DNA of 64,000 nt from Prosopocoilus inquinatus. Lineage: Eukaryota > Arthropoda > Insecta > Coleoptera > Lucanidae. A program made the translations under genes and the position numbers. Position 1 is the stretch's first letter; each line of letters begins with the position of its first letter. The DNA lies in assembly GCA_036172665.1 (NCBI GenBank), contig CM069875.1:21421806-21485805 (forward strand). Direction: 5' to 3'. Shown here piece by piece: positions 7,006 through 51,900 of this stretch. The notes under the pieces are model-generated. The model was given only the letters and a program-made list of their open reading frames with translations, had not been told where the DNA came from and ran no database searches.

Positions 7006-7290
7006 CATTTGCGAATAAATTGGGCAAGTCGTTTTTGGTCTGCAGTGGGAATGTCGAGCTACGTTTCTGCTGAAGAAGCCCCAAGCAGGTCTGAAACAGC
7101 TGTCCAGAGGCTGCTCGAGGTTCTCACTGCAATCAAAAACGATTTGCACAAAAGTTTTCTAAAATCTTTCATTATGCTTTGACAGCAAGCATGGCCGCCT
7201 TGCATGGGGGACTCATTAGGAGCCGCTTCAATTTGTCTATCCTACTGCAATGTTAAGTCAAAAAGCGATAGTAAGATGTCGCTATTTTAT
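7006..7290 (+). mobile_element. Retrozyme monomer inserted in the Polinton polymerase gene
   Basis: About 285 bp matching the family seen at 34178-34811, 39728-40769 and 41074-41653. It separates the exonuclease half of polB (ending near 7290) from the part that resumes near 7005. The right end is ...CGCTATTTTATAT, the same terminus as in the other insertions. It lacks about 9 bp near 7213 compared with other copies. I could not define a target duplication beyond perhaps AAAT. Confidence 0.85.
7064..7110 (+). ncRNA. Type I hammerhead ribozyme, retrozyme copy A
   Basis: Core CTGAAGA at 7070-7076 and GAAA at 7093-7096. Stem III is AC/GT closing an AGCT loop. The predicted cleavage is after GTC at 7104. 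Stem I pairs 7064-7069 (TTTCTG) with 7105-7110 (CAGAGG). Stem II AGCCC/GGTCT has one mismatch, so this copy may be impaired. Confidence 0.75.
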
Positions 7291-8874
7291 ATTTAAAATT
7301 AATGTTGCACACAGAATGAGCAGCACTTCTAAACGCTCCCGATAAATGTTCGTGATCACGCACCTTCTCCTTAACATCTAATATTGGTTTTTCACAAATA
7401 TGACACATTGTTGCACGGTCGCATGCCTCTTTTTCTTCTCGTGTTAAATCAGTCATCGGCTCAATTTTGCTTAAATATTTATCGTAAATTTCTTTAATAT
7501 CTTTTTCTAACCATTTTATAAACTCAGTGGCGGCATTCTCTCCGCGATATAACTTTAACATTGACAAATTAGCATTGAAACTGCACTTAATGTAATATGC
7601 AAATGAATGAGGTTCGTGTTCATAACACTTAACAGTGAAAGATTTATCTGGATTTGGTTCTACTCTGTCCAGTGGTTTTAGCAATGCTTCGAAATCGGCA
7701 TATATAACAAAAGGAAGTTTTAACTGTTTTTCAAAATTTTCAAATTGTAATATATTCTCTGGCAAAGATTCACCATACTTATTTATTCCAACAATAGTGA
7801 GTATTTCCGTTGTTGTCATCAATTAATAATAAGTTTATATGAATATTTTTTCTATTTTTAGTAAAATGTAACGGTCCTACAACTTCATCAACCGTAACCT
7901 TACCATTATAATGGGAACCGCGTCCGTAGACATTTATAGAAATATTGTTCTTGCTTTCAAATTTCTTCACGTCACAAAGTTTCAGTGGAAATTCTAGGTC
8001 AGTGAAATCCGCTACTGTGTTATAATGGGAATACGAAGACATCCTTTGAGGAAGACCTGCCGGTTGACACATCGCTGACGTTATCGCCCAGGCAAAGCAA
8101 GCGTTGTCGTTACTTCTAACATTTATGACAGCTTTCTTCGCACTTATTGAAGACGGTAATGGCATGAAGCTGGATGCTTTCAGTGGATTGTATTTATTAA
8201 TGTTGACTTCCATATATAAAATTCTGCACAAAGTCCATCCTGTAACAATATTTGCAACTTTAAGTTTTATTCTAAACGATTGCACCTATTATTTTTTTTA
8301 CCCGAATCTCGCTCCTGAAATTCCGACATTTTTACATGTATTTCGTTTACAAAATCACGATATATATTGTATATATCAGTTCCAAAACAAGTTATTTTAT
8401 TCTTGGTGTTAAAAGATTTTATCTCAGAACTTTCTTTAGAATCTAAGAAATAGACTCCGAAAATTTCCACATTCCACTTTAATGCTTTATGCCTAATATA
8501 CTTTGAACCAAAGTTAGTACTTTTTCTTGAATATTGTACATAAAATCCTCGACATCGACATAATTGTAAGGTTCCGTTATACGGTACGTTACGATTTTAT
8601 CTCCGAATGCACCAGCTATCTTCTCCACGCCGTTATCGACGACCACAAAAGCATTACTTTTATGTGAATTACTACGCAAATGTGCTGAGAAACACTTTCT
8701 GCTGACGTATATTTCACACACATCACATTTCATAACGTTCACCTGGTCAACAACTTTGGACGGTCCGGCAATTTCATCTAATTTCAAACGTTTTTCCTGG
8801 CAAGACGTACGCAAATGACGATTCATATTATCGATTCGCGTAAATTTTTTGCCACACTGATTGCAATCAAACAT

Positions 8875-9060: not shown

Positions 9061-9548
9061 TCAAGGTCCGTTACGAGGTCACCTCAGTCATTTCAAGGTC
9101 GCCTCAAGGTCATCCCAAGGTCACCTCACGGTCATTTAAAGGTCACCTCAGAGTCATTTCAAGGTTACCTCAAGGTCACTTCAAGGTCACTGCAAGGTCA
9201 TTTCAAGGTCACCTCAAGGTCATTTCACGGTCACCTCAAGGTCATTTCAAGGTAACCTCAAGGTCATTTCGAAGTCACCTCAAGGTCATCACAAGGTCAT
9301 TTCAAGGTCACCTCAATGTCATCTCAAGGTCATTTCAAAGTCACCTCAAGGTCATTTCAAGGTCACCTCAAGGTCACTGCAAGGTCATTTCAAGGTCACC
9401 TCAAGGTCATTTCGAGGTCACCTCAAGGTCAGTTCAAAGTCACCTCAAGGTCATTTCAAAGTCACCTCAAGGTCATTTCAAGGTCACCTCAAGGTCATTT
9501 AAAGGTAACCTCAAGGTCATTTCAAGGTCACCTCAAGGTCATGACCTT
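9061..9548. repeat. Minisatellite of TCAAGGTCA motifs, 11-bp period
   Basis: About 45 head-to-tail units alternate between CAAGGTCACCT and CAAGGTCATTT, each 11 bp. At least twenty exact copies of TCAAGGTCA are present, plus one-base variants. Because three units make 33 bp, the frame stays open and gives an 11-residue peptide repeat, which I treat as an artefact. TCAAGGTCA is the consensus monomer site of NR5/FTZ-F1 and ERR-type nuclear receptors. Whether anything binds here is unknown. Confidence 0.95.
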
Positions 9549-9577
9549 GACCTCGAAGCTCATGGTGAGGTCACGTC

Positions 9578-17149: not shown

Positions 17150-18624
17150 TGTTACAGTTAGATTTTTCGTTAGTGTTTTCTATGTTAAAATTTTTACTTT
17201 TAATCAAATTTGAAGTTGGGTGGCGAACCTAGTCGCTTACTCTGCCTTTTTGGGTTAGGCATTTAGTCGCTAGATGTCGTAAGCTTGCAGTGTGCATATA
17301 AATCTAGTTCGTTGGCAATAGAATGTTCCAGAATTTTATGCGGAAGTGACGTAGGTTGAAATGCACGCTTCCTATTGGTGCAGACTTCGGACAAGGCGGA
17401 AGGGTTGGTGACGACCATGTTTCTTTGTTCACTTTTGAAACGGATTGCGAGGCAAGCAGACGTTTTCTTGTGCACTCTGTGCTTTTGTGTTATGTGAGTT
17501 TTGGTTGGTGGTTTTGAGGGCAAATCCACTGTGCCGACGGCGAATGCCGGAATCTTCCCCGCTGTTCTTGAAAAGTATCGTGTGAATACTTTTGTCTAAA
17601 CCTGTAAATTACTAGGTAAGTCGCATCCTTTTTTTTTTTTTTTGATCCGCCATTACGAAGCTAATGCGCTTTATTTTCTTTTCCGTTAGGTTTTTTTCTT
17701 TACCCCTTTGGTTTCTCCTTGTGCTAATTGCTGTTGGTGTAATTTTGGAATCACCACCTCATCGGTGAATACCTCGGGATGTCCCTACCTGGCGCGTGAA
17801 ACCCCGACTCGAGAACGTCGTCGCGTCTCGGTCGAGTGACGTCACATTTCGGCGTGCAACGCGGAAAGTAGTTTTGGGGACAACCCCTGACCAACACCAG
17901 GCAAAGCGGCAGATTTTCTTACTCCTGCGCTGACGGGCAGTTCAAGCCTTGGAGATGACGCCTTGGAAAAGGACCAAACGCACTTGGAAGAAAATTTCAG
18001 GTCCTATTTTGTATATTTCATAACCTACCAGTAGAGCTCAAGTTTACCTCCGCGTCACATTTTTTTTTTTGTTTTTGTTAGTTCAGTGGACAATTCATTG
18101 CTTTGTTGACAAGTTTTAATAACCCATTAACTTACAGTGTAAGAGCAGATCTGTTCCCACTTGCAGTTTTTGCGAGTTTTATTGTGTCAAGACATTTTGT
18201 TGGTTACGACCTTTTATTTATATTTAACGTGGGTCCATTTAAGAGACAATAAAGTTTGGTTCAACTTTTGATGGTGATATTTAACAGGCTGTGTGTGTGG
18301 GTGTCAAATTACCGTACCCCCTTGACTTTTACACTCTATCCCCTTGCTGCATTATTATCGTCGCACTCAGCTGAGGCGAAGTTGGTTGAAAACGACTGCT
18401 TCGTCATAACACACCTAGGTAATCTCTCCGTTTCGTGGCGCCTTATAAATTCTGAGACGACCCCTTTTACTGTTGGAGAACCTCGACCCTTCTCCGTTGA
18501 GTCAGCCGTGGGCACCCAGGTGTTACCACCGTTCAGCTGCGCCTTTCGCACGGTAAGTGTAGTATTCTGTCCCGAACCTCCAACTTTAGTTAGACTACCA
18601 CCAAAAAGCTGTGGTTAGGTAGCA
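17150..18624 (+). repeat. 5' LTR of the Gypsy element
   Basis: Starts TGTTACAG and ends GGTAGCA; 1475 bp, near-identical to 24117-25590. An AATAAA signal at about 18248 suggests the polyadenylation point. The reading frame at 18256-18618 is non-coding LTR sequence. Confidence 0.95.
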
Positions 18625-18630
18625 AATTTT

Positions 18631-18648
18631 TGGCACCTCTACGTGGGG
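18631..18648 (+). promoter_or_regulatory. Primer-binding site of the Gypsy element
   Basis: TGGCACCTCTACGTGGGG begins 6 nt after the LTR. The leading TGG complements the CCA end of a tRNA. I cannot name the tRNA. Confidence 0.5.
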
Positions 18649-18946
18649 CTTCCTTCCTTTTGAAGTTTTCTCGTGTTCCCCAGGTCCTTAGACACATTTA
18701 CCTCATACGTCCAAGTATTTTTTTTTTTTTTTTTCAAATTTATTTTGTTTCCCCAAGTGGACGAGCACGCCTTGGCACATCATCGCCGTGGTTTATCAAC
18801 TTCTTACCATTCCCCAGGTGCTCCGACACAAATTTCAAGACTAAGTTAATGTTTCCAATTATTTTCCTGAATTTCCTTCCTGACATAGACACACAGAGCA
18901 ACGGTGTATTGTGATTATAACTTTATTGTCTCATATTTTTGTAATA

Positions 18947-20023
18947 ATGGATTTTAAATTGCGACCTGATCGTTTAACTTCACAAGAGCTTACATATGAA
19001 TTAAAAGTCCGTGGTATCGATGATGGTGGAACCGTTCCCAAAAAAATTGAGACACTTAGAAAATTATTGCAAGAGGAAAACGAGGCGTGTGGTACCGCAG
19101 TTGAGTATATGTTTTCTTCTCAGGAGGATTTGTTAGCTTTGCAGGCAAAATTAATAGAGATTCTTGCGCTCATAGACGATTTAAAACCGAGTACTTCAAA
19201 TTATTTTCGAGGGAAAATTGCGGCAGAAATTACGCATGCTTTTGGACGCGCGCATCGCTGTCAAGCTACTTCTAGGGACGAAATCGATATACGTGATAAT
19301 TTTGTTACTGAACTTCAAGAACTCATGGCAGAATATGAATTAAAGTGGTTAAAGCTTAATGCGGATCGAGCTGTATCGGCGGATGTTCCAAAAACCCCTT
19401 TGATAAATTTAAGCGCTATGGCGGATGATTTTGTTGCATCTAGCAGTCGTGTTGAAACCGTTGCGCCAGATAAAATCGCGCTGCCACCAAAAGTTAAGTC
19501 GTTGTCGCCGATTGCTAGGACTGACTTTGATCAGTCACATACGCTTTTCTTGACCCCTTCGGCAACAAATGTGACTCCTCCTCAACAATTCACGTACGGA
19601 AGTTCCCCTGTTAGAGCAACCGAGTTTAAGTCGATACCCGTATCTAAGTGGAATATTACCTACGCAGGAGACAATAAAGTGATGTCATTAAATGCTTTCT
19701 TGGAAAGAGTTAGTGAACTTTGTGTTTCGCGAAATGTCTCTGAGGCATCCTTGTTGATTTCAGCTTCTGATTTATTCCGAGGTAAAGCGCTTATTTGGTA
19801 TCGAGCAAATAAACATCTCTGTCAAACGTGGTCCGAGCTAGTGCGTCTCCTTCGTGAGGAATTTCAAGTTCCTGATTTCGATGACCGACTTTTCGAGGAA
19901 ATTAAACGTAGAACTCAAGGTCCAGACGAATCCATTGGTATTTACTTGTCAGTTATGACAAATCTTTTTAATAGACTGAATACCCAGGTCCCAAATTGGA
20001 TTAGTGGATATTGTTTCAATTGA
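18947..20023 (+). pseudogene. Gypsy gag, capsid part, truncated by a frame break
   Basis: Starts at ATG 18947 (MDFKLRPDRLTSQELTYELK); an upstream in-frame extension has no Met context typical of gag. The N-terminus has a SAP-like helix-extension pattern (LTSQELTYELKVRGID, then KKIETLRKLLQEE). The capsid-like region contains WNITYAGD and LFRGKALIWYRAN, then WSELVRLLREEFQ, a hallmark of Ty3/Gypsy capsid. The frame is lost after NRLNTQVPNW at about 20000, and the zinc-knuckle part continues in another frame. Some capsid C-terminal sequence appears to be missing at this junction. Confidence 0.85.
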
Positions 20024-20357
20024 GCAATTATTACAGTTGGGTCGACGACTAGAATCTCGTAAGTCAGCTGTTGAGTCATATGCACCTCCACCTCGCAAAG
20101 GCTCCTTACTGGAACCTGATCTGGCCTATGTGACCAATCAATCTGTCGAGGCTATGGACTGCAGCCCTGTTGAAGCGACTTCTGCCCCTGATTCTCCAAA
20201 TAGGTCAAATAAAAAGTGCTGGAATTGCAGGAGAGATGGACACATGGCTCGGGACTGCAATCTTCCTGCTCAGAAACATTGTTTCCGCTGTGGCAAGCCT
20301 AACGTAACCTCAAAAACATGCCCTAGGTGTTCAAAAAACTTGCAAACCGCGCATTAG
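20004..20357 (+). pseudogene. Gypsy gag, nucleocapsid part with two zinc knuckles
   Basis: Continues gag in a shifted frame. CWNCRRDGHMARDC and CFRCGKPNVTSKTC are two CCHC-type knuckles that would bind the RNA genome. It overlaps the start of pol by 31 bp in another frame, which in intact relatives is the site of gag-pol frameshifting. Confidence 0.85.
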
Positions 20358-22297
20358 GTGGTCGACTGATGCGTTGCTTCCAACTTTCTAAATCGACCAC
20401 AACACCTCCACAAATTTCAGCAAAACTCGACTATGTCCTGTCAAATGCTATTGATGATGAGCGTCCTTATTTAGAAGTTTCGATTTTTGGCACTAAATTT
20501 CTGGGTTTATTGGATTCTGGCGCTTCATGCACTATAATAGGAGGGCCAGGATGGGAAGTATTGCAAGGTTTCGATTTACCTTTTAGGAAGCATTGTACAA
20601 ATTGTACGGTAGCTAACGGTCAATCTTGTGTTAGCCCAGGTAGTGTCACGACTCCTATTCAATTAAGGGATCGCGTTCGCATCATTGACATCTTAGTAGT
20701 ACCCGAACTTCCACAAACTTTAATCCTTGGTGCAGATTTCTGGAGATTAATGGAAATCGTCCCTGATCTCAGATCGGGTGAATGGACTTTTAGGAAGGAC
20801 ATCGTTTGTTCGGTGGAACAACCGAAGGCTTGTGTTGAACTCACTTTACCGCAACAACAAAGATTGGATGGTTTAGTGGAAAAACTTTTTCATAATGTCG
20901 AAGAAGGTAAGCTCGGATGTACTAATATGGTCGAACACGTCATCAATACGGACAGTACTCCCATTAAACAACGTTACTACCCTATTTCTCCGGCCAGACA
21001 AGCAATCGTAGATAAAGAGTTGGACAACATGTTAGAACTCGGTATCGTAGAAAGATCCAATTCGGCTTGGTCTTCGCCCATTTTACTCGTCCCAAAGAAA
21101 GATGGAACAGTAAGGTTTTGTGTCGATTTTCGTAAAGTAAACCAAGTTACAAAACGTGATGCTTATCCCTTACCCTATGTGTCTGCCACTCTTGATAAAC
21201 TCCGCGACGCAAAATATCTCACCTCACTAGACATCAAATCAGCTTATTGGCAAATACCTGTTGCAAAAGAGTCTCGACAGTATACCGCTTTTACAATTCC
21301 TAATCGAGGACTTTTCCAATTCTGTCGAATGCCCTTTGGTTTACATAATGCCCCTGCAACTTGGCAACGTTTCATAGATCGTGTCCTAGGTGCTGATTTA
21401 GAGCCACATGTTTTCGTGTACCTTGACGACATCGTCATTGTAACCCAAACGTTTGAAAAACATCTTGAAATCCTTGAAGAGGTTCATAAGAGATTAGTCT
21501 CCGCAGGTTTAACACTAGGTAAGGACAAGTGTCATTTTTGTCGTAGTGAATTAAAGTATCTTGGTTACGTCATCGACAGAAATGGACTTCACGTGGATCC
21601 TGAAAAGGTTGAGGCCATTTTGAAAATCCCTAAACCCACTACTGTGACTGAAGTACGTAGACTCATTGGAATGGCCAGCTGGTATCGTAGATTCATTCCG
21701 AATTTTTCTACCGTGATCGCTCCTTTGTCGAAATTATTGAGGAAAAATTCTAAGCAGCGTTGGGATGAAACTTGTGATCAGGCTTGGGAAAAAATTAGAG
21801 AATATATTGTTTCGGCTCCCGTACTTTCGTGCCCTGATTTCACAAAAGAATTTACGATCCAAACTGACGCTTCAGAGTATGGTCTTGGCGCAGTCCTCAC
21901 ACAACAACAAAATGATGGTGAAAAGGTAATATGTTATCTGAGTCGTTCACTCTCACGTGCCGAACGCAAGTATTCGACTTGCGAAAAGGAATTATTAGCC
22001 ATGTTGTGGGCCATTGAGAAACTCAGACCGTATGTGGAAGGTGCTCATTTCACCGTGATCACTAATCACTATTCCTTGATCTGGTTAAACAGGCTACAAA
22101 ATCCTTCAGGACGTTTGAGTAGGTGGAGCGTACGTCTTCAGCAGTACGATTTTACTGTAGTTCACCGTAAGGGAAAGGAACATGTTGTTCCAGACGCACT
22201 CTCTAGGGCAGTACCGATCATTGATGCCATACACTTGACTGAAATAAAAGATCGACGATACTTAAATCTTCTGGGGAAAATCAAGGCGGACCTCTGA
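20327..22297 (+). pseudogene. Gypsy pol: protease, reverse transcriptase, RNase H
   Basis: A 656-codon open stretch. The aspartic protease has FLGLLDSGASCTIIGG (active-site DSG). The reverse transcriptase has FCVDFRKVNQVTKRDAYPLP, LTSLDIKSAYWQI and the catalytic YLDD in VFVYLDDIVIVTQ. The RNase H has FTIQTDASEYGLGAVLTQ and ELLAMLWAIEKLRPYVEG. The frame ends at a premature TGA (22295-22297) just before the integrase, which resumes in another frame at about 22393. Up to that point the polyprotein looks intact. Confidence 0.93.
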
Positions 22298-22392
22298 ACT
22301 TTCCAAATTATCGGGTAGAAGGGAATATCATCTACAAGTTCGTTACATGCACTTATTATCATCTTATTGAAGCAGAACGGCAGTGGAAACAG

Positions 22393-23499
22393 GTGGTTCC
22401 TAAGGAAAATCGTTTCGAAATTCTTCGGCAAGCCCATGACTCTCCCACTAGTGGACACTTAGGCGTGTACAAAACGTACAATCGCATTGCACAAGATTAC
22501 CATTGGCCTAAAATGCGCTCCGATGTCGCTAAGTATGTTCGGAAATGTGAGATTTGTCTTCGAGCCAAGCCAGAACAAAAAGCTCCTACTGGACGCATGG
22601 GTGGCCATTCGAAAATCACGAAACCCTGGGAAGTCATTAGTATTGATTTGATAGGACCGCTTCCCCGTTCCACAAAAGGTAACCAGTACATCTTAGTAGT
22701 TACCGACTGTTTCAGCAAGTTTACCTTGTGCTTTCCCCTTCGAAAAGCTACAACCCCTAAGATTTTGCAGTATCTAGAGAATGATGTTTTTCTGTTGTTT
22801 GGTGTACCTCTCGTCATTATCTCGGATAATGGGGTACAATTTCGCTCCAAAGAATACAAAAATCTTCTGACGTCCTATCAAGTACGACCCTCGTATACTT
22901 CTTTTTATCATGCACAAGCAAATCCCGTTGAGCGAGTCAATCGTGTCATCAAGACTATGCTCATTTCTTACGTTTCGAAAGATCACCGCAAATAGGATCT
23001 AGTTTTGCCAAAGATTGCATGTGCATTGAGGACAGCTCGTCACGAAGTTACAGGTATGACCCCTTACTTCTTGAATTACGGTCGTGAGATGTGTTTAAAG
23101 GGAAATTTGAATACAGAAAAAGCTAAAGGTATGGACCCTGACAAGTTAGAGGTAGTGCAAGACCCAACTGAATTGCAATCGCGTACTGGCAAGTTTGCTC
23201 AGTTATATAGGGAAGTCCAAGAACGACTTCACAAATCTTTTGAGAAATCCAAGTCTCGTTACGATCTGCGTAGACGTAAGGTAGATTTTGAATCGGATCA
23301 GTTGGTGTGGCGGAAGAATTTTGTCCTATCCGATGCTTCTAAACATTTTGCAGCTAAATTGGCTGATAAGTATGTAGGTCCCTTTATGATACATAAACGA
23401 GTTTCGACTGACACCTATGAGCTGAAAGATTGTGACGGACATATTTTGCCCGGTACTTGGACAAGCGCTCATCTAAAGCCTAGTCCATCGGACGATTAA
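22393..23499 (+). pseudogene. Gypsy integrase with an in-frame stop
   Basis: N-terminal zinc-binding region (SGHLGVYKTYNRIAQDYHWP, CEICLRAKP). The catalytic core has the three acidic residues in ISIDLIGPLP, VIISDNGVQF and ANPVERVNRV. A TAG at 22993-22995 interrupts a frame that otherwise continues unchanged to TAA 23499. The C-terminal part contains MTPYFLNYGREM and the DNA-binding module YVGPFMIHKRVS. The stop sits where the family usually has Trp, so one base change explains it. Confidence 0.9.
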
Positions 23500-24101
23500 C
23501 CGTCATCTGCCAGATTGTCTTGGGTTTACTCCCCTACGATCTTCAGATCATTGTTTACCGACGTTGACTTCTATCGGATTTGACATACCGGACATGACAT
23601 TCTTGAGGCGTAAGCGTGGCTGAAACCTCGACCAGGAGATTTCGTCTCCTCTTTCTAAATTCTTTTGGCCTGACGCCCGATTTTGGCAAGGTTTTAGATG
23701 TGCACGGGAGTGAGTTGCGTGGGGACATGCGGTGCCGCTACTGCGGGATAGCATGTTCCCATGTGGTTCACTCTGTGACAATCTTGCAGGGGTGAGCCCC
23801 AGCATCCCTCGTTTTTACTTTTACAAAGAATGCCTCTCGTTCTCGAGAGTATTCTCCATTTTCTTTTGATTTCTGGATTGTGAAATGACATATTTTGTTG
23901 TTATTATTTAAAGTTTTACTAGTTTTAAGGTTGTTTGGTAGTTGGTGGAGATCGTCAAAAAAAAAAATTTTTTTTTTATCATCTTTTAGGTTGAACATTT
24001 TTTTTTTTACGCTGGTTTCGTACCATTTTATTTGTGGCCCTGCCGTGTTAACAATTTAGACTCCGTCCTGGAAATTTTTCCCGTTGGTCAAAATTTCTTT
24101 T
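23500..24101 (+). other. Gypsy 3' untranslated region
   Basis: About 600 bp with no envelope-like frame. It contains A/T runs near 23958-24008. Confidence 0.6.
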
Positions 24102-24116
24102 TGGTAGGAGTGGAGT
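24102..24116 (+). promoter_or_regulatory. Polypurine tract of the Gypsy element
   Basis: The purine-rich run GGTAGGAGTGGAGT abuts the 3' LTR and would prime plus-strand synthesis. Confidence 0.65.
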
Positions 24117-25590
24117 TGTTACAGTTAGATTTTTCGTTAGTGTTTTCTATGTTAAAATTTTTACTTTTAATCAAATTTGAAGTTGGGTGGCGAACCTAGT
24201 CGCTTACTCTGCCTTTTTGGGTTAGGCATTTAGTCGCTAGATGTCGTAAGCTTGCAGTGTGCATATAAATCTAGTTCGTTGGCAATAGAATGTTCCAGAA
24301 TTTTATGCGGAAGTGACGTAGGTTGAAATGCACGCTTCCTATTGGTGCAGACTTCGGACAAGGCGGAAGGGTTGGTGACGACCATGTTTCTTTGTTCACT
24401 TTTGAAACGGATTGCGGGGCAAGCAGACGTTTTCTTGTGCACTCTGTGCTTTTGTGTTATGTGAGTTTTGGTTGGTGGTTTTGAGGGCAAATCCACTGTG
24501 CCGACGGCGAATGCCGGAATCTTCCCCGCTGTTCTTGAAAAGTATCGTGTGAATACTTTTGTCTAAACCTGTAAATTACTAGGTAAGTCGCATCCTTTTT
24601 TTTTTTTTTTGATCCGCCATTACGAAGCTAATGCGCTTTATTTTCTTTTCCGTTAGGTTTTTTTCTTTACCCCTTTGGTTTCTCCTTGTGCTAATTGCTG
24701 TTGGTGTAATTTTGGAATCACCACCTCATCGGTGAATACCTCGGGAAGTCCCTACCTGGCGCGTGAAACCCCGACTCGAGAACGTCGTCGCGTCTCGGTC
24801 GAGTGACTTCACATTTCGGCGTGCAACGCGGAAAGTAGTTTTGGGGACAACCCCTGACCAACACCAGGCAAAGCGGCAGATTTTCTTACTCCTGCGCTGA
24901 CGGGCAGTTCAAGCCTTGGAGATGACGCCTTGGAAAAGGACCAAACGCACTTGGAAGAAAATTTCAGGTCCTATTTTGTATATTTCATAACCTACCAGTA
25001 GAGCTCAAGTTTACCTCCGCGTCACATTTTTTTTTTGTTTTTGTTAGTTCAGTGGACAATTCATTGCTTTGTTGACAAGTTTTAATAACCCATTAACTTA
25101 CAGTGTAAGAGCAGATCTGTTCCCACTTGCAGTTTTTGCGAGTTTTATTGTGTCAAGACATTTTGTTGGTTACGACCTTTTATTTATATTTAACGTGGGT
25201 CCATTTAAGAGACAATAAAGTTTGGTTCAACTTTTGATGGTGATATTTAACAGGCTGTGTGTGTGGGTGTCAAATTACCGTACCCCCTTGACTTTTACAC
25301 TCTATCCCCTTGCTGCATTATTATCGTCGCACTCAGCTGAGGCGAAGTTGGTTGAAAACGACTGCTTCGTCGTAACACACCTAGGTAATCTCTCCGTTTC
25401 GTGGCGCCTTATAAATTCTGAGACGACCCCTTTTACTGTTGGAGAACCTCGACCCTTCTCCGTTGAGTCAGCCGTGGGCACCCAGGTGTTACCACCGTTC
25501 AGCTGCGCCTTTCGCACGGTAAGTGTAGTATTCTGTCCCGAACCTCCAACTTTAGTTAGACTACCACCAAATAGCCGTGGTTAGGTAGCA
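24117..25590 (+). repeat. 3' LTR of the Gypsy element
   Basis: 1474 bp, TGTTACAG...GGTAGCA. It differs from the 5' LTR at roughly eight positions, including GATGTCC/GAAGTCC near 24745 and a change near the end, indicating a recent insertion. Confidence 0.95.
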
Positions 25591-31984: not shown

Positions 31985-31985
31985 T

Positions 31986-32163: not shown

Positions 32164-34176
32164 ATGAGTGAAACTGCTTTGAAAGATCTTAAGAACAAGA
32201 AAAAACAATTGAAAGCTTCTCTAACAAGATTCATCACATGGTCTACTTCGCTAACGGAAAATAGCAACCCAGTTGAAATAAAACGGCGTCTTAATGTAGC
32301 CGAACAATATTTATCGCAATTTCTAGATATTCAAGATCATATTGAACTTCTAGAAGAATCAGACGTGCTTGACGAAGAAAGAATTGAGTTCGAAAATAAT
32401 TGTTTTCAAGTAACTAGCAAGGTAGAGAAGTTTTTAATTGACATAGCGGATAATAAGACTCAAAACAATAAGGTCAATCATGTTAATGATCAAACTAATA
32501 ATCAATTTAATCACGTGCGTCTTCCTACGATTAAATTACCTGTTTTTTCTGGTGCTTATCATGAATGGTTCTCGTATCATGACACGTTTCTTTCGCTAAT
32601 TCATTCGAATGAAAGCTTAACCGACGTTCAAAGGTTTCATTATTTAAAGGCATCTTTACAAGGAGAAGCCGCAAATGTCATCACCTCTCAAAATTATCGC
32701 GAAGCTTGGGAAATGTTAAAGGAAAGATACAGCAACAAACGATTAATTATACAAAAACACATACGAGACATTTTTGAATTACCCAGCGCTCACAAAGAAA
32801 ATCCTAAAATATTGCGTCAAATTCTAGACGGGGTATTAAAACATCTTCGTGCATTAAAGGCTTTGGAACGTCCTACAGATACTTGGGACGATTTGCTAAT
32901 TCATCTAATTTCTTCTAAGATTGATCCTTACACAAATAAGGACTGGGAAGCAAGCATCACTAAATCTGAAATTCCCTCCTTCAAAGAAATGGCCGATTTC
33001 TTGTTGCACAAATGTGAAACGCTAGAAATCATTTCAAAGAAATTCTTCCAATCTTCACAACCAAAGCTTTCTTCAAATAAATCAACACTTTCTCATGTTG
33101 TAACTCAGAAACAATCATGTGTTATATGCAAGTCTGATCATCTTATCTATCATTGCAAATCCTTTCTTCAACTGACAATTGAAAAGCGTTTACAAACAGC
33201 TAAGGCTAAGAACCTGTGCATCAATTGTTTAAAACCTGGTCATCAACTAAACAAATGTACATCAGGGACTTGTAAAGAGTGTGGAAAACGGCATAATACC
33301 TTGCTACATTTTCCAATTCAGCAAAAACAAGAAGATCAAAACCTTTCATGTCCAAGTGATTCCGCAACATTTTCTGCACATTCTTCCGAGGACATATCTC
33401 AAATTTTCTTGTCGACAGCCATTGTCAAAATTTACGATCGTCGTAACAAAGCTCATGAATGTCGCGCCTTGCTCGATTCTGGTTCGCAATCCAATTTCAT
33501 CACCAAGGATTTAGCAACGAAACTAAATCTAGTCTTGAATCCAACATCAGTACCTGTCATGGGAATCAACAAGGTAAAATCTCACATATCTCATTGCGTC
33601 ACAGCAGGAATATCTTCCATGTACAACGCATTTCGTGCAAATCTGAAATGTCTTGTGTTGGAGAATATAGCAGGAAACATACCTCAAATCTCCGTGGAAA
33701 GGTCAAGTCTCTCAATACCAAAAAATGTGAAGTTGGCAGATCCCAACTTTAACATTTCAAACAAGATAGACCTATTAATAGGTTCAGAAACATTTTGGAA
33801 GCTATTATGTGTTGGACAAATAAGGCTTCCAGAAAATCAACCATGCCTACAAAAAAACCATCTTGGATGGATCATCGCTGGGAAGTTAGGAAATATTTCT
33901 CAAACCTTTACGAGCACGTTTTGCAGTTTAGCATTGGAAAACAAGCTGGAAGCGAGCCTAACGAAATTCTGGGAAGTTGAACAGTGCCCACGCAAACCAG
34001 CTTTAACCATGGAAGAAAAGGTTTACGAAACGCACTTCAAGGACACTGTTAGAAGAGATGAGAATGGTAGGTTCGTCGTCCAGCTACCACTGAAGGCAAG
34101 CGAAACTACATTGGGCGAGTCAAGATGCAACGCAGTGAGGCGATTATATTCTCTGGAGAGGAAACCACCAGATTAA
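32164..34176 (+). pseudogene. BEL gag and protease (with loss of the RT N-terminus)
   Basis: Start chosen at ATG 32164 (MSETALKDLKNKKKQLK); the frame is open upstream but lies within the leader. Gag has the DUF1759 signature LPTIKLPVFSGAYHEWFSYH with LKASLQGEAANVI. It is followed by zinc knuckles (CVICKSDHLIYHC, CINCLKPGHQLNKC, CKECGKRHN). The protease (DUF1758 type) has CRALLDSGSQSNFI. The frame reaches FVVQLPLKASETTLGESRCN and LYSLERK, then stops at TAA 34174-34176. Compared with relatives, about 60-70 residues before the RT core are missing. The deletion predates the retrozyme, because the duplicated target spans the junction. Confidence 0.9.
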
Positions 34177-34368
34177 GAACATATAAAATAGCGACATCTT
34201 ACTATCGCTTTTTGACCTAACATTGCAGTAGGATAGACAAATTGAAGCGGGATTTGCTCCTAATGAGTCCCCCATGCAAGGCGGCCATGCTTGCTGTCAA
34301 AGCATCATGAAAGATTTTAGAAAAATTTTGTGCAAATCGTTTTTGATTGCAGTGAGAACCTCGAGCAG

Positions 34369-34415
34369 CCTCTGGACAGCTGTTTCAGCCCTGCTTGGGG
34401 CTTCTTCAGCAGAAA
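34369..34415 (-). ncRNA. Type I hammerhead ribozyme, retrozyme copy B
   Basis: Complete consensus on the minus strand. Stem I is TTTCTG/CAGAGG, the core is CTGAAGA...GAAA, stem II is AGCCC/GGGCT and stem III is AC/GT with loop AGCT. Cleavage is predicted after GTC. Confidence 0.88.
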
Positions 34416-34758: not shown

Positions 34759-34805
34759 TTTCTGCTGAAGAAGCCCCAAGCAGGGCTGAAACAGCTGTCC
34801 AGAGG
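34759..34805 (+). ncRNA. Type I hammerhead ribozyme, retrozyme copy C
   Basis: Identical to copy B over the 47 nt. CTGAAGA is at 34765-34771 and the predicted cleavage is after 34799. Confidence 0.88.
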
Positions 34806-34815
34806 CTGCAACACC

Positions 34816-37779
34816 AGATTAAGGGTAGTTTTTGACGGATCCGCAAAAGCAACGAATGGAACCTCATTGAATGAAATTCTCATGGTCGGTCCCAATTTAC
34901 AAGATGACATATTTTCGATTATCATAAAATTTCGAACCCATAAATATGTGGTCACTGCAGACGTTGCCAAAATGTATCGGCAAGTTTTGGTTGATAGAGC
35001 TCAGACAAGGTTGCAAAGAATCGTTTGGAGATTCAATACCAATGACAGCATAGAAGATTACGAACTGTCAACTGTAACCTACGGAACAGCATCGGCCTCC
35101 TACTTAGCAATTAAGGCACTGCAATCTTTGGCTATGGAGGAAGCTGATCGGTTTCCAGTTGGATCATCAATCATCCTAAGTGATTTCTATGTTGACGATT
35201 TGTTAACTGGGGCAAACACCGTAGAAGAAGTTAAAACGATTATTGAAGAAGTAAACACGTTACTTCAAGAAGGCGGTTTTCAACTTCGCAAATGGTCTTC
35301 AAATCATCCACAACTGCTTGATTTCATTCCAAATTCCTCAACGGACGCAGCAATTCTAAACATTACAAAAGATGAAATTAAAACATTAGGATTACAATGG
35401 AATTCAGTTTCAGATGTTCTCCAATACAGACTGTCCCCTTCAAGGACAAACAACAAAACGACCAAGAGAACCATTTTATCACGAACTTCACAGTTGTTTG
35501 ATCCGTTGGGATTGGTGAGTCCTGTCATTATAATTGCCAAAATAATGATGCAAAGACTGTGGCTTTTAAAATTAGATTGGGATGAATCTGTCCCACAAGA
35601 GATACACTCAACTTGGACACAGTTTGAAGCCCAGTTAGAGTATCTAAAAAACATCAAAATACCTAGGCAGGTTACACTTAATGATAACAATCCAACGTTA
35701 GAAATCTGCGGTTTTTCTGACGCCAGTGAAAAGGCATACGGAGCGTGTGTATATATAAGGTGCATCAATTCAAATGGTAACATTAGCAGCAATCTTTTAT
35801 GCTCAAAATCTAAAGTTGCCCCCGAAAAATGCATTTCCCTTCCAAGATTGGAGCTATGTGGTGCGCTCCTATTGGCTCAGCTCGTAGAAAAGGTGTCATC
35901 TTCCATAAATAGTTCTATTAAATTTATTCGCTTATGGACAGATTCTACTATAGTGCTCTGTTGGATAAGATCAACGTCAAAGAAGTGGAAAACCTTTGTA
36001 TCAAATCGAGTGAGTGAAATTCAAATTTTGACGAAGGTAGAAAGCTGGAACCATGTTAAGACTACTGACAATCCAGCTGATCTTATATCAAGAGGAACTT
36101 CAACCGAACAGTTGGCCACTTGCAAGTTATGGTGGGAAGGCCCCGACTGGCTCTCCAAAGATGAGAAGTACTTTCCAATGCAAACTGATACCGATATTCA
36201 AGGGATTGATCAAAAATGTCTAGAAATACGCAATGTTCCTCCCGTTCAAGTATTCTTTGCTCAAGACAATTTTAACATATTTGAACGATATTCCAGTTTA
36301 AACAAACTGACACGAATATTAGCATACTGTATCCGTTTTAAGCTGAATCTCCTCGCCAAAATCAAAGGTACTCCCGCTGAGGCACTTTCTGGTCCATTGA
36401 AGATGTCTGAACTGGTTCATGCTAACAACACCCTGATTAAGCTGGTTCAGAAAGAGGTTTTCACACGCGAATTGGATACCTTGCGTAAAAAAAGGTCATT
36501 GCCTAATAAAAGTAAGCTATTGTGTTTGAATCCATTCCTAGATGATGATGGTTTGCTGAGAGTAGGAGGTAGAATTCAAAATTCATCTTTGACTCGTGAC
36601 AAAAGGCATCAAATCATACTACCCTCAAGTCATGTCTTCACGAAGCTTCTGATAGAACAAGAACATATACATCAGCTACATGCAGGTGTACAACAGACAG
36701 TAGCCGCTGTCAGGGCTAAGTATTGGCCACTGGCTGCAAGAGGAACCGTGCGACATGTAGTTAGAAGATGTGTTCCTTGCTTTAAGGCTAATCCAAAACC
36801 TACCGAATATATCATGGGAAACTTGCCTCATGGTAGAGTCGAACCAGCTCGTCCGTTCACACACGTAGGAGTCGACTACTGTGGACCATTTCATATTCAC
36901 GAGGGTTCAAGACGCAATAGCCGTATCGTAAAGGCATATGCTGCGGTATTCGTATGTTTTGCAAGTAAAGCTATTCACATAGAACTTGTCAGCAATTTGT
37001 CTTGTGAAGCATTTTTAAGTGCATTAAGGAGATTTATTGCACGCAGAGGTCATCCATCACATATCTATTCAGACAATGCCACCAACTTTACTGGGGCGAA
37101 TAAGGAACTACAACGGTTGCAGAAGTTGTTTGAAGATACTGAGCAAGAAATGATCCTCAACTACTTATCTGAGCGAAACATTCAGTGGCACTTCATACCG
37201 GCGCGATCTCCACATTTCGGAGGCTTGTGGGAAGCGGCGGTAAAGTCAGTCAAAAACCATCTAAAACGTATCGCGGGCAATGCCCACTTGTCCTTTGAAG
37301 AATTGTATACATTTCTTGTTCAAATAGAGGCAGTATTAAACTCCCGTCCTCTTACTCCAATGTCAGATGATCCTAACGATCCATCCTTCCTCACTCCTGG
37401 TCACTTTCTCATTGGTGAACCCCTCACTGAAATTTTCGAGCCAAATTTAACAGGGCTAAGGTTAAACCGGCTATCTCGATGGCAACATGTTCAGCAATTG
37501 AAGCAGCACTTCTGGACCAGGTGGTCAAAGGAATACCTCAGCCAGCTACAAGAAAGGAGGAAATGGCAGAAAAACCCTGGACCAATTCTACAACGTGGCA
37601 ACTTGGTCATCATCAAGGAGGATGGTACTCCACCGCATCTCTGGATCTCAGCCCGTGTCGTGGAGGTTCATCCAGGATCAGATGGTGCGATACGTGCAGC
37701 AACAGTGCAAACTAGTTCGGGAGTGACGAAGCGAGCCCTGAATAAGTTATGTTTGCTACCGATCAAAGACAACGAGTAG
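34816..37779 (+). CDS. BEL pol: reverse transcriptase core, RNase H, integrase
   Basis: Downstream of the retrozyme the frame is open for 988 codons, from RLRVVFDGSAKATNGTSLNE to the TAG at 37777-37779. The RT has VTADVAKMYRQVLV and the catalytic YVDD in FYVDDLLTG. The RNase H-like region has GFSDASEKAYGACVYIR, LPRLELCGALLLAQL and LWTDSTIVLCWIRS. The integrase has CVPCFKANP (zinc part), VGVDYCGPFHI, HIYSDNATNFTGANKE and HFGGLWEAAVKSVK (acidic triad). A DUF5641-type C-terminus follows (RWQHVQQLKQHFWTRWSKEY). This half is intact but cannot be expressed with gag because of the insertion and deletion upstream. Confidence 0.93.
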   Translation, partial: RLRVVFDGSAKATNGTSLNEILMVGPNLQDDIFSIIIKFRTHKYVVTADVAKMYRQVLVDRAQTRLQRIVWRFNTNDSIEDYELSTVTYGTASASYLAIKALQSLAMEEADRFPVGSSIILSDFYVDDLLTGANTVEEVKTIIEEVNTLLQEGGFQLRKWSSNHPQLLDFIPNSSTDAAILNITKDEIKTLGLQWNSVSDVLQYRLSPSRTNNKTTKRTILSRTSQLFDPLGLVSPVIIIAKIMMQRLWLLKLDWDESVPQEIHSTWTQFEAQLEYLKNIKIPRQVTLNDNNPTLEICGFSDASEKAYGACVYIRCINSNGNISSNLLCSKSKVAPEKCISLPRLELCGALLLAQLVEKVSSSINSSIKFIRLWTDSTIVLCWIRSTSKKWKTFVSNRVSEIQILTKVESWNHVKTTDNPADLISRGTSTEQLATCKLWWEGPDWLSKDEKYFPMQTDTDIQGIDQKCLEIRNVPPVQVFFAQDNFNIFERYSSLNKLTRILAYCIRFKLNLLAKIKGTPAEALSGPLKMSELVHANNTLIKLVQKEVFTRELDTLRKKRSLPNKSKLLCLNPFLDDDGLLRVGGRIQNSSLTRDKRHQIILPSSHVFTKLLIEQEHIHQLHAGVQQTVAAVRAKYWPLAARGTVRHVVRRCVPCFKANPKPTEYIMGNLPHGRVEPARPFTHVGVDYCGPFHIHEGSRRNSRIVKAYAAVFVCFASKAIHIELVSNLSCEAFLSALRRFIARRGHPSHIYSDNATNFTGANKELQRLQKLFEDTEQEMILNYLSERNIQWHFIPARSPHFGGLWEAAVKSVKNHLKRIAGNAHLSFEELYTFLVQIEAVLNSRPLTPMSDDPNDPSFLTPGHFLIGEPLTEIFEPNLTGLRLNRLSRWQHVQQLKQHFWTRWSKEYLSQLQERRKWQKNPGPILQRGNLVIIKEDGTPPHLWISARVVEVHPGSDGAIRAATVQTSSGVTKRALNKLCLLPIKDNE

Positions 37780-37834
37780 TTCAAGTAAAATGTTCTGATT
37801 GATTTGAAAGGAAATCCTTTCAACGCGGGCGGCA

Positions 37835-38251
37835 TGTTCGCTTTAATGTGCAATTTACCCTTTGGATTTTGGATTTCTAACTACACAAAATTTCCCAATT
37901 TATGATTTCCTAGTAACGTTTTACTTCAATGCCAACCAATAACAATGTACCAGAAGGAAATGCAAGACCTTCTGATTGGTTCAACCCTTCCCGTAAGGCG
38001 CGAAGAATAATTTTCTTCGAGGAGAAAACGACACCCCAAAGTCAGTACCGATTGATCTTCCATCTAAATCATTAGATGAGATCAGCGCAGAAACTCCTCT
38101 TTCAATTCAAATTATATTTAAAATTTATTTTAATTGTAAGAGTTTTGTAAATAGTTGTTGGAGTTATTAAATAGTTCTTAGACTCAATGTTGGTGTTTCC
38201 ATTACTACGAGACAGCAGTTGTTCATGCCTATGCACAGCAACCTCAAAACA
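37835..38251 (+). repeat. 3' LTR of the BEL element
   Basis: TGTTCGCTTTAATG to CCTCAAAACA, 417 bp. It is preceded by GCGGGCGGCA, the usual purine-rich junction of BEL elements. Confidence 0.9.
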
Positions 38252-39702: not shown

Positions 39703-39819
39703 GCGACAAGAGTCATATGCGAAAATGCAAGGCGGCCATGCTTGCTGTCAAAGCATCATGAAAGATTTTAGAAAAATTTTGTGCAAATCGTTCTTGATTG
39801 CAGCGAGAACCTCGAGCAG

Positions 39820-39866
39820 CCTCTGGACAGCTGTTTCAGCCCTGCTTGGGGCTTCTTCAGCAGAGA
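39820..39866 (-). ncRNA. Type I hammerhead ribozyme, retrozyme copy D
   Basis: Full core on the minus strand. Stem I is TCTCTG/CAGAGG, in which a wobble pair of the consensus has become Watson-Crick. Confidence 0.85.
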
Positions 39867-40222
39867 CGTAGCTCGACATTCCCGCTGCAAACAAAAACGA
39901 CTTGCCCAATTTATTCGCATTTGCGATGTAAGAGTGATGAACAGATAAAATAGCGACATCTTACTATCGCTTTTTGACCTGACATTGCAGTAGGGTAGAC
40001 AAATTGAAGCGGGATTTGCTCCTAATAAGTTCCCCATGCAAGGCGGCCATGCTTGCTGTCAAGCTACTGCAATGCTTTGACAGCAAGCATGGCCGCCTTG
40101 CATGGGGGACTTATTAGGAGCAAATCTGCTTCAATTTGTCTATCCTATTCATCACTCTTACATCGCAAATGCGAATAAATTGGGCAAGTCGTTTTTGTTT
40201 GCAGCGGGAATGTCGAGCTACG

Positions 40223-40269
40223 TCTCTGCTGAAGAAGCCCCAAGCAGGGCTGAAACAGCTGTCCAGAAG
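40223..40269 (+). ncRNA. Type I hammerhead ribozyme, retrozyme copy E
   Basis: Full core, with CTGAAGA at 40229-40235. Stem I TCTCTG/CAGAAG has one C-A mismatch at the fifth pair. Cleavage is predicted after 40263. Confidence 0.85.
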
Positions 40270-40531
40270 CTGCTCGAGGTTCTCGCTGCAATCAAGAACG
40301 ATTTGCACAAAATTTTTCTAAAATTTTCATTATCCTTGACAGCAAGCATGGTCGCCTTGCATGGGGAACTTATTAGGAGCAAATCCCGCTTCAATTTGTC
40401 TACCCTACTGCAATATCAGGTCAAAAAGCGATAGTAAGATGTCGCTATTTTATCTGTTCATCACTCTTACATCGCAAATGCGAATAAATTGGGCAAGTCG
40501 TTTTTGTTTGCAGCGGGAATGTCGAGCTACG

Positions 40532-40578
40532 TTTCTGCTGAAGAAGCCCCAAGCAGGGCTGAAACAGCTGTCCAGAGG
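40532..40578 (+). ncRNA. Type I hammerhead ribozyme, retrozyme copy F
   Basis: Identical to the consensus copies B and C. Cleavage is predicted after 40572. Confidence 0.88.
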
Positions 40579-40769
40579 CTGCTCGAGGTTCTCGCTGCAA
40601 TCAAGAACGATTTGCACAAAATTTTTCTAAAATTTTCATTATCCTTGACAGCAAGCATGGCCGCCTTGCATGGGGAACTTATTAGGAGCAAATCCCGCTT
40701 CAATTTGTCTACCCTACTGCAATGTCAGGTCAAAAAGCGATAGTAAGATGTCGCTATTTTATCTGTTCT

Positions 40770-41073
40770 TATTTATTATGTTACAATAATTATAAATGAT
40801 TAAATTACAAAAATTAGTTAAAATACTGTTTTCCAAATATTGGCGATGATCACAATCTTGAAACTCAAAATTTATATTGGCTTACACAAACTCTTTTATT
40901 TTGTTACCGACATTGTTTTTATATATAATTTGGGGCAAATAATATGATATACAATTAAAAAATTTTAGCAATGTTTTTATAAATGATTCTTTACAATAAA
41001 TTAAGTTGCTTGCATCATACTGCTTTAAAGTAAGAAATTGATATAAATCAGATCTCTCTACAGTATTTATTAT
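40770..41073. other. AT-rich stretch between retrozyme insertions
   Basis: No gene. It ends with CAGTATTTATTAT (41061-41073), the left target duplication of the next retrozyme. Confidence 0.5.
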
Positions 41074-41123: not shown

Positions 41124-41170
41124 CTTCTGGACAGCTGTTTCAGCCCTGCTTGGGGCTTCTTCAGCAGAAA
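41124..41170 (-). ncRNA. Type I hammerhead ribozyme, retrozyme copy G
   Basis: Full core. Stem I TTTCTG/CAGAAG has one more Watson-Crick pair than the consensus. Confidence 0.87.
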
Positions 41171-41444: not shown

Positions 41445-41491
41445 CTTCTGGACAGCTGTTTCAGCCCTGCTTGGGGCTTCTTCAGCAGAAA
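41445..41491 (-). ncRNA. Type I hammerhead ribozyme, retrozyme copy H
   Basis: Same 47 nt as copy G. Its 5' edge lies exactly at the inversion junction at 41491. Confidence 0.85.
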
Positions 41492-41866
41492 CGATTTGCA
41501 CAAAATTTTTCTAAAATCTTTCATTATGCTTTGACAGCAAGCATGGCCGCCTTGCATGGGGGACTCATTAGGAGCAAATCCCGCTTCAATTTGTCTATCC
41601 TACTGCAATGTTAGGTCAAAAAGCGATAGTAAGATGTCGCTATTTTATCTGTTCAGTATTTATTATGTTAAATGCACAAACTCTGCAGTTTTTATATTGA
41701 AACTTAATGTTTTTCGCAATGAAACGATTGATGATTGGTCTAAATCTATTTCTGAAGGCAAAGTTGGTGGTACAGAAGAATATGAAAAATGAAATTCTGA
41801 TGCTGTATCGTCTAGAACTAAGTGTGTCAAAGTAAGTAATGGGATGGAATTGTCATTTTCACAGTT

Positions 41867-48900: not shown

Positions 48901-51900
48901 AGATTAGAATTTTTTTCTTGTTTTGAACTCCACTATCATCTGCCAAACTTTGTCCGTTTTTTCTATAACACCCTGTATATTTTATGAATTTACGTAATTT
49001 TTAAAGATAAATTTGTATTGTTTTTAAATTATGTTAGTTCAACTACTAATTTCTTCGTGTTAAACAAACCACCGCTGCTTGTTCCAATATAATAATAATT
49101 TATTATTCATTTTTAATACATTTTCGGTCGTAACCGTTCAGAAGAATTCGTGATTAACGCTCTTGTATGCTTCAGAAATTTATAATAAATCCTTTTAACT
49201 CGTGTAAGACACGCTAATCGAACAATAATCACGAATTAACTAATTCAGATTTACTAATTAAGATTAGGACAAACTACGGTCCGTGCAACTCGGAAGTCTC
49301 TAATTCAGATTAGTCAATCTGTGTTAACGTAATTGAGGCTGAAATTGCAGGTCGTTACTTGCCGAATCAACTAACTCAAGTTTGTTAATCATAGATTAGG
49401 GCAAATTAAGGTCGGTGCAACTGAAAAGTCGCTAACTCAGATTAGTTAATCTGTGTTAACGTTAATCAAGGTCGGTGCAACTCAGCCTTAAAGTTGTAAA
49501 TAACTTCATAACCAGAGCATTAATTAAATTTAGTAATGTGTCAGTGTGCTATACATTCATTAGTGAACATAGGCACAATTCTGATAAGATGATCAATAAT
49601 CTTCTTGGAGTAGTATCTCACTGCAAGGTTTCTGCACCTCATGGCAAAGTGTCTTCAATGTTTAAGAGGAAACATTAGCAGCCTCCTTCTGATGAAGCTA
49701 TTACAGAAACCACAGAGCTGGAGATCTTGGTGGTTTAGCCTCTCAAAAAGATTTAAACATGATCAAAGTAGTCCAGTGTGTATTCTGTAAGCACTACCTG
49801 TAGCCTATGTAATTTTAAAAGGCCCAAAAGTAAACTAATTTTGGTGTCGACAATGTACGGCAGTACATTAAATAGTTGCTAGGTATGCTTGTGTGTGATA
49901 TGTCAATTAACTTTAACTACTTTTTATTACATTTGTATCAGAAATCAGTTAACTAAGATAGTGTATAGTTGTATACCTGGTTGTTAAACAGTGTCACAAT
50001 CGTTTCATTCATTTCTAAACGATTGAATGTTAAAAGCAAAATGATTTGTAGCTGTCTCCAGACCAAGTTCTAAAGCAGCAATTGGAAATCATCAAATACT
50101 TGGAGCTACGTATGAAAGATATACAGTAATCAGTGTGTTTCATTGGTCTGTAGCATTAGCACGATGAATAATAAATTTACTGCCACATATTTATAAATTG
50201 CACAGCTCATAAATTTATTGGATTATATTTTTTATAAAACTTTGTTGCAAATCGTTTTTGATTGCAGTGAATAGTGAATCCCTCGAGCAGCTTCTGTACA
50301 GCTGTTTCATCCTTATTTAGCTGTTTAAACTGTTCATTATATTTTTTATATTCAAATATCAATGCAAATTAATTTGTAAATATTTTTTACTCATTGCAGT
50401 ACACCAAAACAATCACTTGAAAAGAATATGGTGCTGACAAAGTCATACTTACACAACATTATCAGCTAGAGTACTGTAGAGTACTGAGAGATGTAATTAA
50501 AAAAATCATATGTCCATTTTTTTAAAAACTAATTACTGTTATTCAAGTTAGGAATCAGCCAAATCTTTTCGTTCGGGAGAAAATCTCTTTAGTTCGTCTT
50601 TGTGAAGCATGCATTTAGGTGATTTTTAATTTTGAGTACTTTGAAGTCTTCTATTTGCTTAAATAACGCAGGGGAATAATTTCTATGTGTAAAGTAAAAA
50701 AATATTCTCTGTGAACACTAGTATATTTGGTAATTTTTTACCTTTGTATGCACAGTTTGTATGAGTTTGGAACAGAGATAGAGTATCTGATGGATCGAAA
50801 GGTTGACGTGATAGATAAAAACTGGGGTCATTTTTGGATTCAGATACCTTAAGTTAGTCAAAGTAACGTCTCAGATCTAAGTCAACAAAATTTTTGTTTC
50901 CCAGTGTAATCGGGCATGTGTCCATCGGACATACTAGTATGTCCAATGGTTTTTTTTTTAATTACATGAGTTTTCATATAGCAAAGCTATAGAACTGATA
51001 ATTTTGATAATCTTTGTGCAAGATTATTTTTTCTTATAATTAACAACCAAGGATCTCTTACAGAAATACTTACAAATTTAATGATGCACTCTGTATATCA
51101 GATATTTACTCAATATACATTTTGGCTTTTACACCATCATTAGGAGTCAATATTATTAGTGAAATTAATTTTCAATTTTAAAGTGTTACCCTTGTTTTAT
51201 TTTTTTATTGGTCACGGTGGTACCCACATCATGTCTTTCTCTCAATTTTACCTCTCCAAGACTATTCGTCAACAAGACATTGTAAGTTATTTGATATACT
51301 AGTATTTAAATCATTAAAATGAAAACATCTTCAAAAATTATTTTGTATTATAAAGAAAACTGCAGCAACTCACATTTAATTGCTTCCAGCTATGCTTTAA
51401 AATCTCAATTCGATTTCTATTACATCTAAGTTTTTGAAATTTTACTGAAATTTTATGGACTAAGGAACCTTTAAAAAAATGAATTATTTAAATTTGTTAC
51501 CTAAAAGAGATGCATTTTCTTTTCTGCAATAATTACATTTTAAGACTCATTAAAGTAAACAATTTAAAATGTTGTAAAGGAAGCGGTTGCAAAATTAAGT
51601 GACCAACGAAAACAATGAATATTTAAACAAAAAATATATTGGATTACGTTAGTATCTATAAAAAAACCTAACCAGTGGGAAACTCTAATCATTCTTAATA
51701 CTTTGTTCCAACTAAACAAACTTTTTTCCCTAGAATTAACAACTAAAAAATATTCTATTTTTAAAACGCATTCAATCATATTTTACGAGCGCGTAGACGA
51801 TCTTGGGCATGGGAGAACCACAGCATGGTTGTTTTTTGGATGTCAGCTTCCTTTCCTTCTGGGTGTGTGCGAAGTACAACATCTGCAAAAAGCAACAGTA

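Follow-up and report, generated by a model that had tools for sequence, protein, structure and literature searches.

Insertions of a hammerhead retrozyme family of Prosopocoilus inquinatus are mostly head to head and end at two fixed sites, like those of a resident Penelope-like element

Here we analyse a stretch of 64,000 nucleotides (the window) of Prosopocoilus inquinatus (assembly GCA_036172665.1, contig CM069875.1, positions 21,421,806 to 21,485,805 of the forward strand), in which an earlier note had pointed out a retrozyme family made of 309-nt units that each carry a type I hammerhead ribozyme. We consider it probable that this is a family of retrozymes of the non-LTR kind (LTR, long terminal repeat) mobilised by a Penelope-like element (PLE), through target-primed copying off both strands from two fixed start sites. 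Most of the insertions examined pair an antisense part with a sense part, head to head; their two ends lie at two different sites of the unit, they are flanked by short target-site duplications (TSDs), and a complete PLE of the same genome carries the same marks. The retrozyme assignment itself fits what can be judged by sequence, namely a type I hammerhead having a 2-bp stem III with a tetraloop, a 309-nt unit, tandem copies and TSDs of more than 4 bp, and it is incomplete in that the head-to-head insertions with two fixed ends had been overlooked.

Results

The 649.6-Mb source genome contains 7023 + 7117 = 14,140 matches to the hammerhead pattern, against 312 + 291 = 603 for the reversed control, and a 21-base pattern adjoining one of the two end sites (site A) gave 8776 + 8848 exact matches, against 0 + 0 in its control. 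For a sample of insertions, 62 clusters, all on contig C1, were counted by eye among the hammerhead places listed, and 60 were fetched, so that all fetched retrozyme loci come from one contig. These 60 loci contained 72 insertions, of which one, at the edge of its stretch, was dropped. Among the remaining 71, 56 are head to head, i.e. an antisense part ('-') is followed by a sense part ('+'). The same polarity was seen among 87 hammerhead places, where opposite-strand neighbours at most 1 kb apart comprised 17 '-+' and no '+-' pairs.

The ends of the head-to-head insertions are not scattered over the unit. With a tolerance of 14 nt, 26 were of class A/B and 26 of class B/A, the others being A/A (two), B/other (one) and other/A (one); thus, 52 of the 56 have one end at site A, around unit position 306, and one at site B, around unit position 170. 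TSDs of at least 12 bp flank 44 of the 56 insertions, vs 5 of 1500 mismatched flank pairings between loci. Exact ends could be read in 43 of these 44 loci: the A end fell at unit positions 302-309 or 2-3 in all 43, and the B end at 166-173 in 40, the other three not being placeable. The TSDs of these 43 loci have an A+T content of 84%. The arms vary widely in length (30-731 nt), and the parts, each corresponding to one complementary DNA (cDNA), exceed 309 nt in 10 of the 55 that start at A and in 10 of the 51 that start at B. The junctions between the arms carry short overlaps or filler. Such junctions, and the head-to-head layout as such, would also be produced by a single cDNA that snaps back and primes itself to yield an inverted insert, as has been proposed for rotifer PLEs (PMC3846280). 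Self-priming would, however, give both ends the same start sequence, whereas two different sites of the unit were observed in 52 of 56 insertions, and the widely variable arm lengths also speak against it; we regard this explanation as improbable.

The sample described above was chosen by the hammerhead. A second sample, independent of it, comprised every insertion with an A-end marker in C1:81,039-2,257,875, which amounted to 33 insertions in 31 stretches, with a hammerhead core in 23. Here, 26 insertions are '-+', and 24 of these 26 have an A and a B end. The cDNAs also tell something about the RNA that was copied. B-started cDNAs run beyond the predicted ribozyme cut site in 26 of 27 cases; one stops short, and none stops within 10 nt of the cut. 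Of the A-started cDNAs, 11 of 32 run beyond the cut site, 20 stop short and one stops within 10 nt. Because a ribozyme-cut linear monomer would limit a B-started cDNA to about 60 nt, the template was circular or uncut, and not a linear monomer cut by the ribozyme. Within an insertion, the two cDNAs are related as well. Rare variants are common to both in 32 of 124 cases, vs a mean of 0.6% (maximum 3.4%) for random other insertions, which implies that they derive from the same RNA or from sister RNAs. They differ by 2.4%, with 1.5% to the nearest other insertion and 4.0% over all pairs, figures into which alignment noise and age enter; when cDNAs were re-paired at random, the mean difference was 4.0% and was never as low as observed in 2000 shuffles.

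The genome has a resident PLE with which these insertions can be compared. In a genome search for GIY-YIG endonuclease sequences, 150 of 2232 candidates were scored, and the majority of these share one score, as would be expected of a single young family. Opposite-strand neighbours at most 10 kb apart among these 150 places comprised 47 '-+' and no '+-' pairs. One insertion, in the stretch L069, contains a frame of 787 amino acids in which a reverse transcriptase (RT, PF00078) and a GIY-YIG domain (PF01541) stand together. Its arms are identical over 1847 bp, it is flanked by a 12-bp TSD, and one end is about 41 nt longer than the other. Each repeat contains a small hammerhead, in which we read a 2-bp stem III and a 4-nt palindromic loop; the exact 40-base hammerhead of this PLE has 367 + 357 copies in the genome (0 + 0 in the control). 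Ten further insertions were chosen among the '-+' pairs and viewed through 401-base end windows. In each case, one end lies at a tail site (L069 positions 2357-2359) and the other at a short site (2387-2397). In all 11 PLE insertions examined, the two end sites thus differ and the TSDs measure 12-16 bp, while 90 mismatched pairings among the ten further ones reached 7 bp at most. Penelope-type integration, taken as a head-to-head layout, two different RNA end sites and a short TSD, is therefore found in both the retrozyme and the PLE. The retrozyme itself is not a PLE, its 309-nt unit being too short for an RT and a GIY-YIG domain, yet it inserts in PLE fashion.

Insertions of long interspersed nuclear elements (LINEs) also show TSDs of a similar kind and inverted 5' parts, and a LINE-type retrotransposon might accordingly move the retrozyme, the inversions being the result of ordinary twin priming. 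Twin priming, however, accounts for a minority of products and begins at scattered points, whereas the inverted side of the retrozyme begins at one fixed site (B or A) in 52 of 56 insertions and within a narrow range where ends were read exactly. Moreover, exactly these marks were found again in the PLE. Although LINEs too are named as possible mobilisers in PMC7229834, we think it unlikely that they account for the insertions.

Two other hammerhead-like motifs were noticed. The first, of the CTGATGAGGTC type, matches 90 + 90 places when up to 2 mismatches are allowed (0 in the control). By eye, six '-' then '+' pairs and no '+-' pair at most 500 bases apart were seen among the matches listed (G000 C1:2206872/2207088, C1:19315885/19316297, C1:22041218/22041523, C1:43384590/43384826, C2:17774400/17774597 and C3:12409093/12409272). 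This second hammerhead family may be another retrozyme with a head-to-head layout. The other motif, of the CTGAAGAGGTCCC type, lies about 1 kb from the PLE insertion of L069, at about L069 1354-1388 (G000 C1:417844-417887, - strand).

The window itself contains five insertions of the retrozyme, L1 to L5 (Table 1). L2, L3 and L4 consist of head-to-head antisense and sense parts. The TSDs of L2, L4 and L5 measure 12, 13 and 15 bp; for each of these lengths, 2 of 3000 random position pairs did as well, as did 11, 9 and 6 of 3000 AT-rich pairs, respectively. No TSD was found for L3, and none that is convincing for L1, where the best candidate has 5 bp, which 534 of 3000 random position pairs also attain. 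The decayed copy L5, with its TSD, explains why the span given in the earlier note ended at 50335.

Table 1. Retrozyme insertions, target-site duplications and hammerhead copies in the window
Feature	Position	Strand	Remarks
309-nt reference unit	40460..40768	+	core CTGAAGA starts at unit 79; cut predicted between units 113 and 114 (40572/40573)
L1	7005..7292	+	one unit, sense only; end near site A (unit 303)
L2 left TSD	34166..34177		CACCAGATTAAG
L2	34178..34811		antisense to 34569, sense from 34568, head to head; left end site A, right end unit 123 (not site B)
L2 right TSD	34812..34823
L3	39725..40768		antisense 39725-40063, sense 40077-40768 including one 309-nt tandem; right end site A, left end unit 212 (not site B)
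L4 left TSD	41061..41073		CAGTATTTATTAT
L4	41074..41653		left end site B (unit 174), antisense up to 41493; sense from 41490, right end site A; canonical
L4 right TSD	41654..41666
L5 left TSD	50222..50236		ATTATATTTTTTATA
L5	50237..50335		decayed copy, antisense; left end site B (unit 173), right end CTGTTC as at site A
L5 right TSD	50336..50350
Hammerhead copy	7064..7110	+	stem II mismatch
Hammerhead copy	34369..34415	-
Hammerhead copy	34759..34805	+
Hammerhead copy	39820..39866	-
Hammerhead copy	40223..40269	+	C-A mismatch in stem I
Hammerhead copy	40532..40578	+	sub-threshold Rfam Hammerhead_1 match
Hammerhead copy	41124..41170	-
Hammerhead copy	41445..41491	-

The eight 47-nt hammerhead motifs that had been listed were all recovered by an exact pattern search, each starting at its listed coordinate, and their assignment to type I is borne out by a conserved core, three stems, an open stem I and a UH cleavage site. 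Six of the eight copies conform to a strict motif with a 5-bp stem I, a stem II, GAAA, a 2-bp stem III and a UH cleavage site, which did not occur in 200 dinucleotide shuffles of the window. Two details of the earlier description have to be revised. Firstly, stem I had been given as 6 bp; it is really about 24 bp long and continues beyond an internal loop that lies roughly 7 bp away from the core. Secondly, the tandem spacing of 309 nt holds for a single pair in the window (40223/40532), and much of the rest consists of inverted repeats, a feature missing from that description. An Rfam search, which had been suggested as a check, gave no match at the gathering score over the window. In a 101-base search, Hammerhead_1 (RF00163) did match 40532-40578 from end to end, with 23.8 bits vs a cut-off of 34 (E = 4e-4), and a 2001-base search returned Hammerhead_HH9 only (16.3-18.5 bits, E 0.29-1.4). 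The shortfall concerns a score cut-off, not a structural feature. Rfam matches to microRNA families, all below their cut-offs (the best being MIR172, 44.4 bits vs 70), were tentatively put down to the long inverted repeats. The exact 35-base hammerhead pattern had no match in viral contigs.

The reference unit has a G+C content of 44%, and its closed 309-nt circle is predicted to be highly paired, at -112.4 kcal/mol, a value calculated without a shuffle control for the circle. Stem pairing was analysed on 103 hammerhead copies from the window and the 60 loci, of which the 96 full-length ones were used. In these, 2895 of 2949 stem cells are paired, against 32-45% after shifting the partners by 1-3; both-sided changes occur at 4 of the 31 stem pairs. 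Variation of the core (0.6% vs 4.7%) was set aside and provides no evidence of conservation, because the loci had been picked by the exact core pattern. The retrozyme RNA would presumably cleave itself at the hammerhead and form circles. The maintained pairing also bears on whether the hammerhead is a mere passenger of a fold-back DNA transposon or of a rearranged satellite. Inverted repeats between short direct repeats, and the presence of tandem units, would fit such an origin. However, the two ends differ in sequence, there are no terminal inverted repeats, the arms are of variable length and the stems have been kept with changes on both sides, which makes an origin of this kind very improbable.

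Several other elements are present in the window. L1 sits among - strand frames of a larger element, which we take tentatively to be a Polinton/Maverick. An integrase was matched nearby and endonuclease VII below its cut-off; the polymerase-like frame 5132-6646 had no Pfam match. L2 interrupts a BEL/Pao-type element (PF05380) at 31572-38138 that has 300-nt direct repeats 99% alike (31572/37839). A Gypsy-type element at 17150-25326 encodes gag, protease, RT and RNase H; it is probably recent, because its long direct repeats are identical where reported (300-nt pairs 17150/24117 and 18061/25027). In addition, there is an array of about 22 copies of a 22-base repeat of the TCAAGGTCA type at 9061-9542, identical direct repeats of 300 and 83 nt, spaced about 1.84 kb apart, at 53347-55770, and, at 59019-61962, several inverted repeats (85-99% alike) that flank frame 60623-61549, which has a Tc3-type transposase DNA-binding domain.

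Discussion

The proposal that a PLE mobilises the retrozyme family is made because its insertions carry the same integration marks as the resident PLE. The steps, in their presumed order, would be as follows. The template would be an uncut or religated, probably circular, retrozyme RNA with its type I hammerhead. In an AT-rich target, the PLE enzyme would nick the two strands at points about 12 bp from each other. Each of the 3' ends freed in this way would prime a cDNA, both on RNA of one and the same polarity, with site A as the start of one and site B as that of the other. The two cDNAs would be extended over variable distances, sometimes for more than one lap of the unit, and then be joined, giving a head-to-head insert between TSDs of 12-13 bp. 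The PLE enzyme, probably as a dimer, might even hold one retrozyme RNA circle and make both cDNAs from it, with a dedicated start site for each nicked strand and the inverted double insert as the normal product, a suggestion for and against which we see the balance as about even. The resident PLE need not be the family that moves the retrozyme.

Several observations weigh against PLE mobilisation in the form described above. Firstly, not all insertions conform to it: 15 of the 71 have other layouts (nine '+', four '-', one '+-+' and one '-+-'), and, in the window, L4 and L5 have the expected A and B ends while L1, L2 and L3 depart from this rule. Secondly, within a long cDNA, 4 of 36 rare variants recur from one lap to another, too few to separate a circle from a multimer, and the laps are not identical, differing by 3.2%, a value that includes alignment noise and age. 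Thirdly, the comparison with the PLE has its limits. The '-+' layout of the ten further PLE insertions was set by their choice (their ends and TSDs were not); outside the hammerhead, the likeness between the PLE and the retrozyme RNA is no higher than in shuffles; and the two start sites lie closer together in the PLE (about 40 nt) than in the retrozyme (about 136 nt). Among the PLE families and LINEs of the genome, the comparison is limited to the resident PLE. Fourthly, in the study of the lizard PLE treated below, the two strands were not seen to differ in their start sites, so that this study does not account for a rule of one site per strand (PMC11167929). Finally, the evidence is genomic.

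In PMC7229834, metazoan non-LTR retrozymes are described as having units of 170-400 nt and type I hammerheads, and PLEs are considered strong candidates for their mobilisers on indirect grounds (hammerheads, tandem copies and co-existence). The present family shares with these retrozymes the type I hammerhead with a short stem III and a tetraloop, a unit within that size range, a low G+C content, tandem copies, TSDs of more than 4 bp and the expected lack of coding capacity. It differs from them in that the head-to-head form with two fixed ends is the commonest one here; the words 'inverted', 'orientation' and 'head-to-head' are absent from the main text of PMC7229834. We found no published report of a head-to-head layout for retrozymes in a literature search that was thin on subscription journals and did not include supplements. 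Plant LTR retrozymes (PMC4918200; as described in PMC7229834) are likewise non-autonomous, carry hammerheads and are thought to move via circular RNA, but theirs are type III hammerheads in LTRs, with 4-bp TSDs. The pDo500 satellite of Dolichopoda cave crickets (PMC2837043) is also an insect repeat with a hammerhead that shows compensatory stem changes; unlike the retrozyme, it is a satellite repeat of about 500 bp.

The insertions share their marks with those of PLEs. The protein of Poseidon, a PLE of the lizard Anolis, cuts and extends both target strands, and cDNA begins at two adjacent internal RNA sites that match the genomic tail (PMC11167929). Rotifer PLEs have inverted repeats, a tail and TSDs (PMC3846280). 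The retrozyme and the PLEs of these two studies have in common head-to-head inverted repeats, partial tandems, short TSDs, insertion into AT-rich DNA, a pair of RNA start sites that shows as an optional tail, and a small hammerhead. The retrozyme differs from PLEs in having no room for an RT, besides the wider spacing of its starts and the dissimilarity outside the hammerhead.

The retrozyme class is already known; what is new is the head-to-head insertion from two start sites, common to the retrozyme and the resident PLE. In a single genome, a retrozyme family numbering many thousand copies has the integration marks themselves in common with a complete PLE, and the insertions provide evidence against a ribozyme-cut linear monomer as the template. 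The question of the mobiliser can be reduced to one protein and one short RNA with defined start sites. If the suggestion of dedicated start sites made above, for which the odds are about even, is true, retrozymes would relate to Penelope elements as short interspersed nuclear elements relate to LINEs, and the rule of two start sites, which the PLE tail already shows, would apply to Penelope integration in general. The 309-nt retrozyme would then be a compact natural substrate that reveals the requirements of the enzyme.

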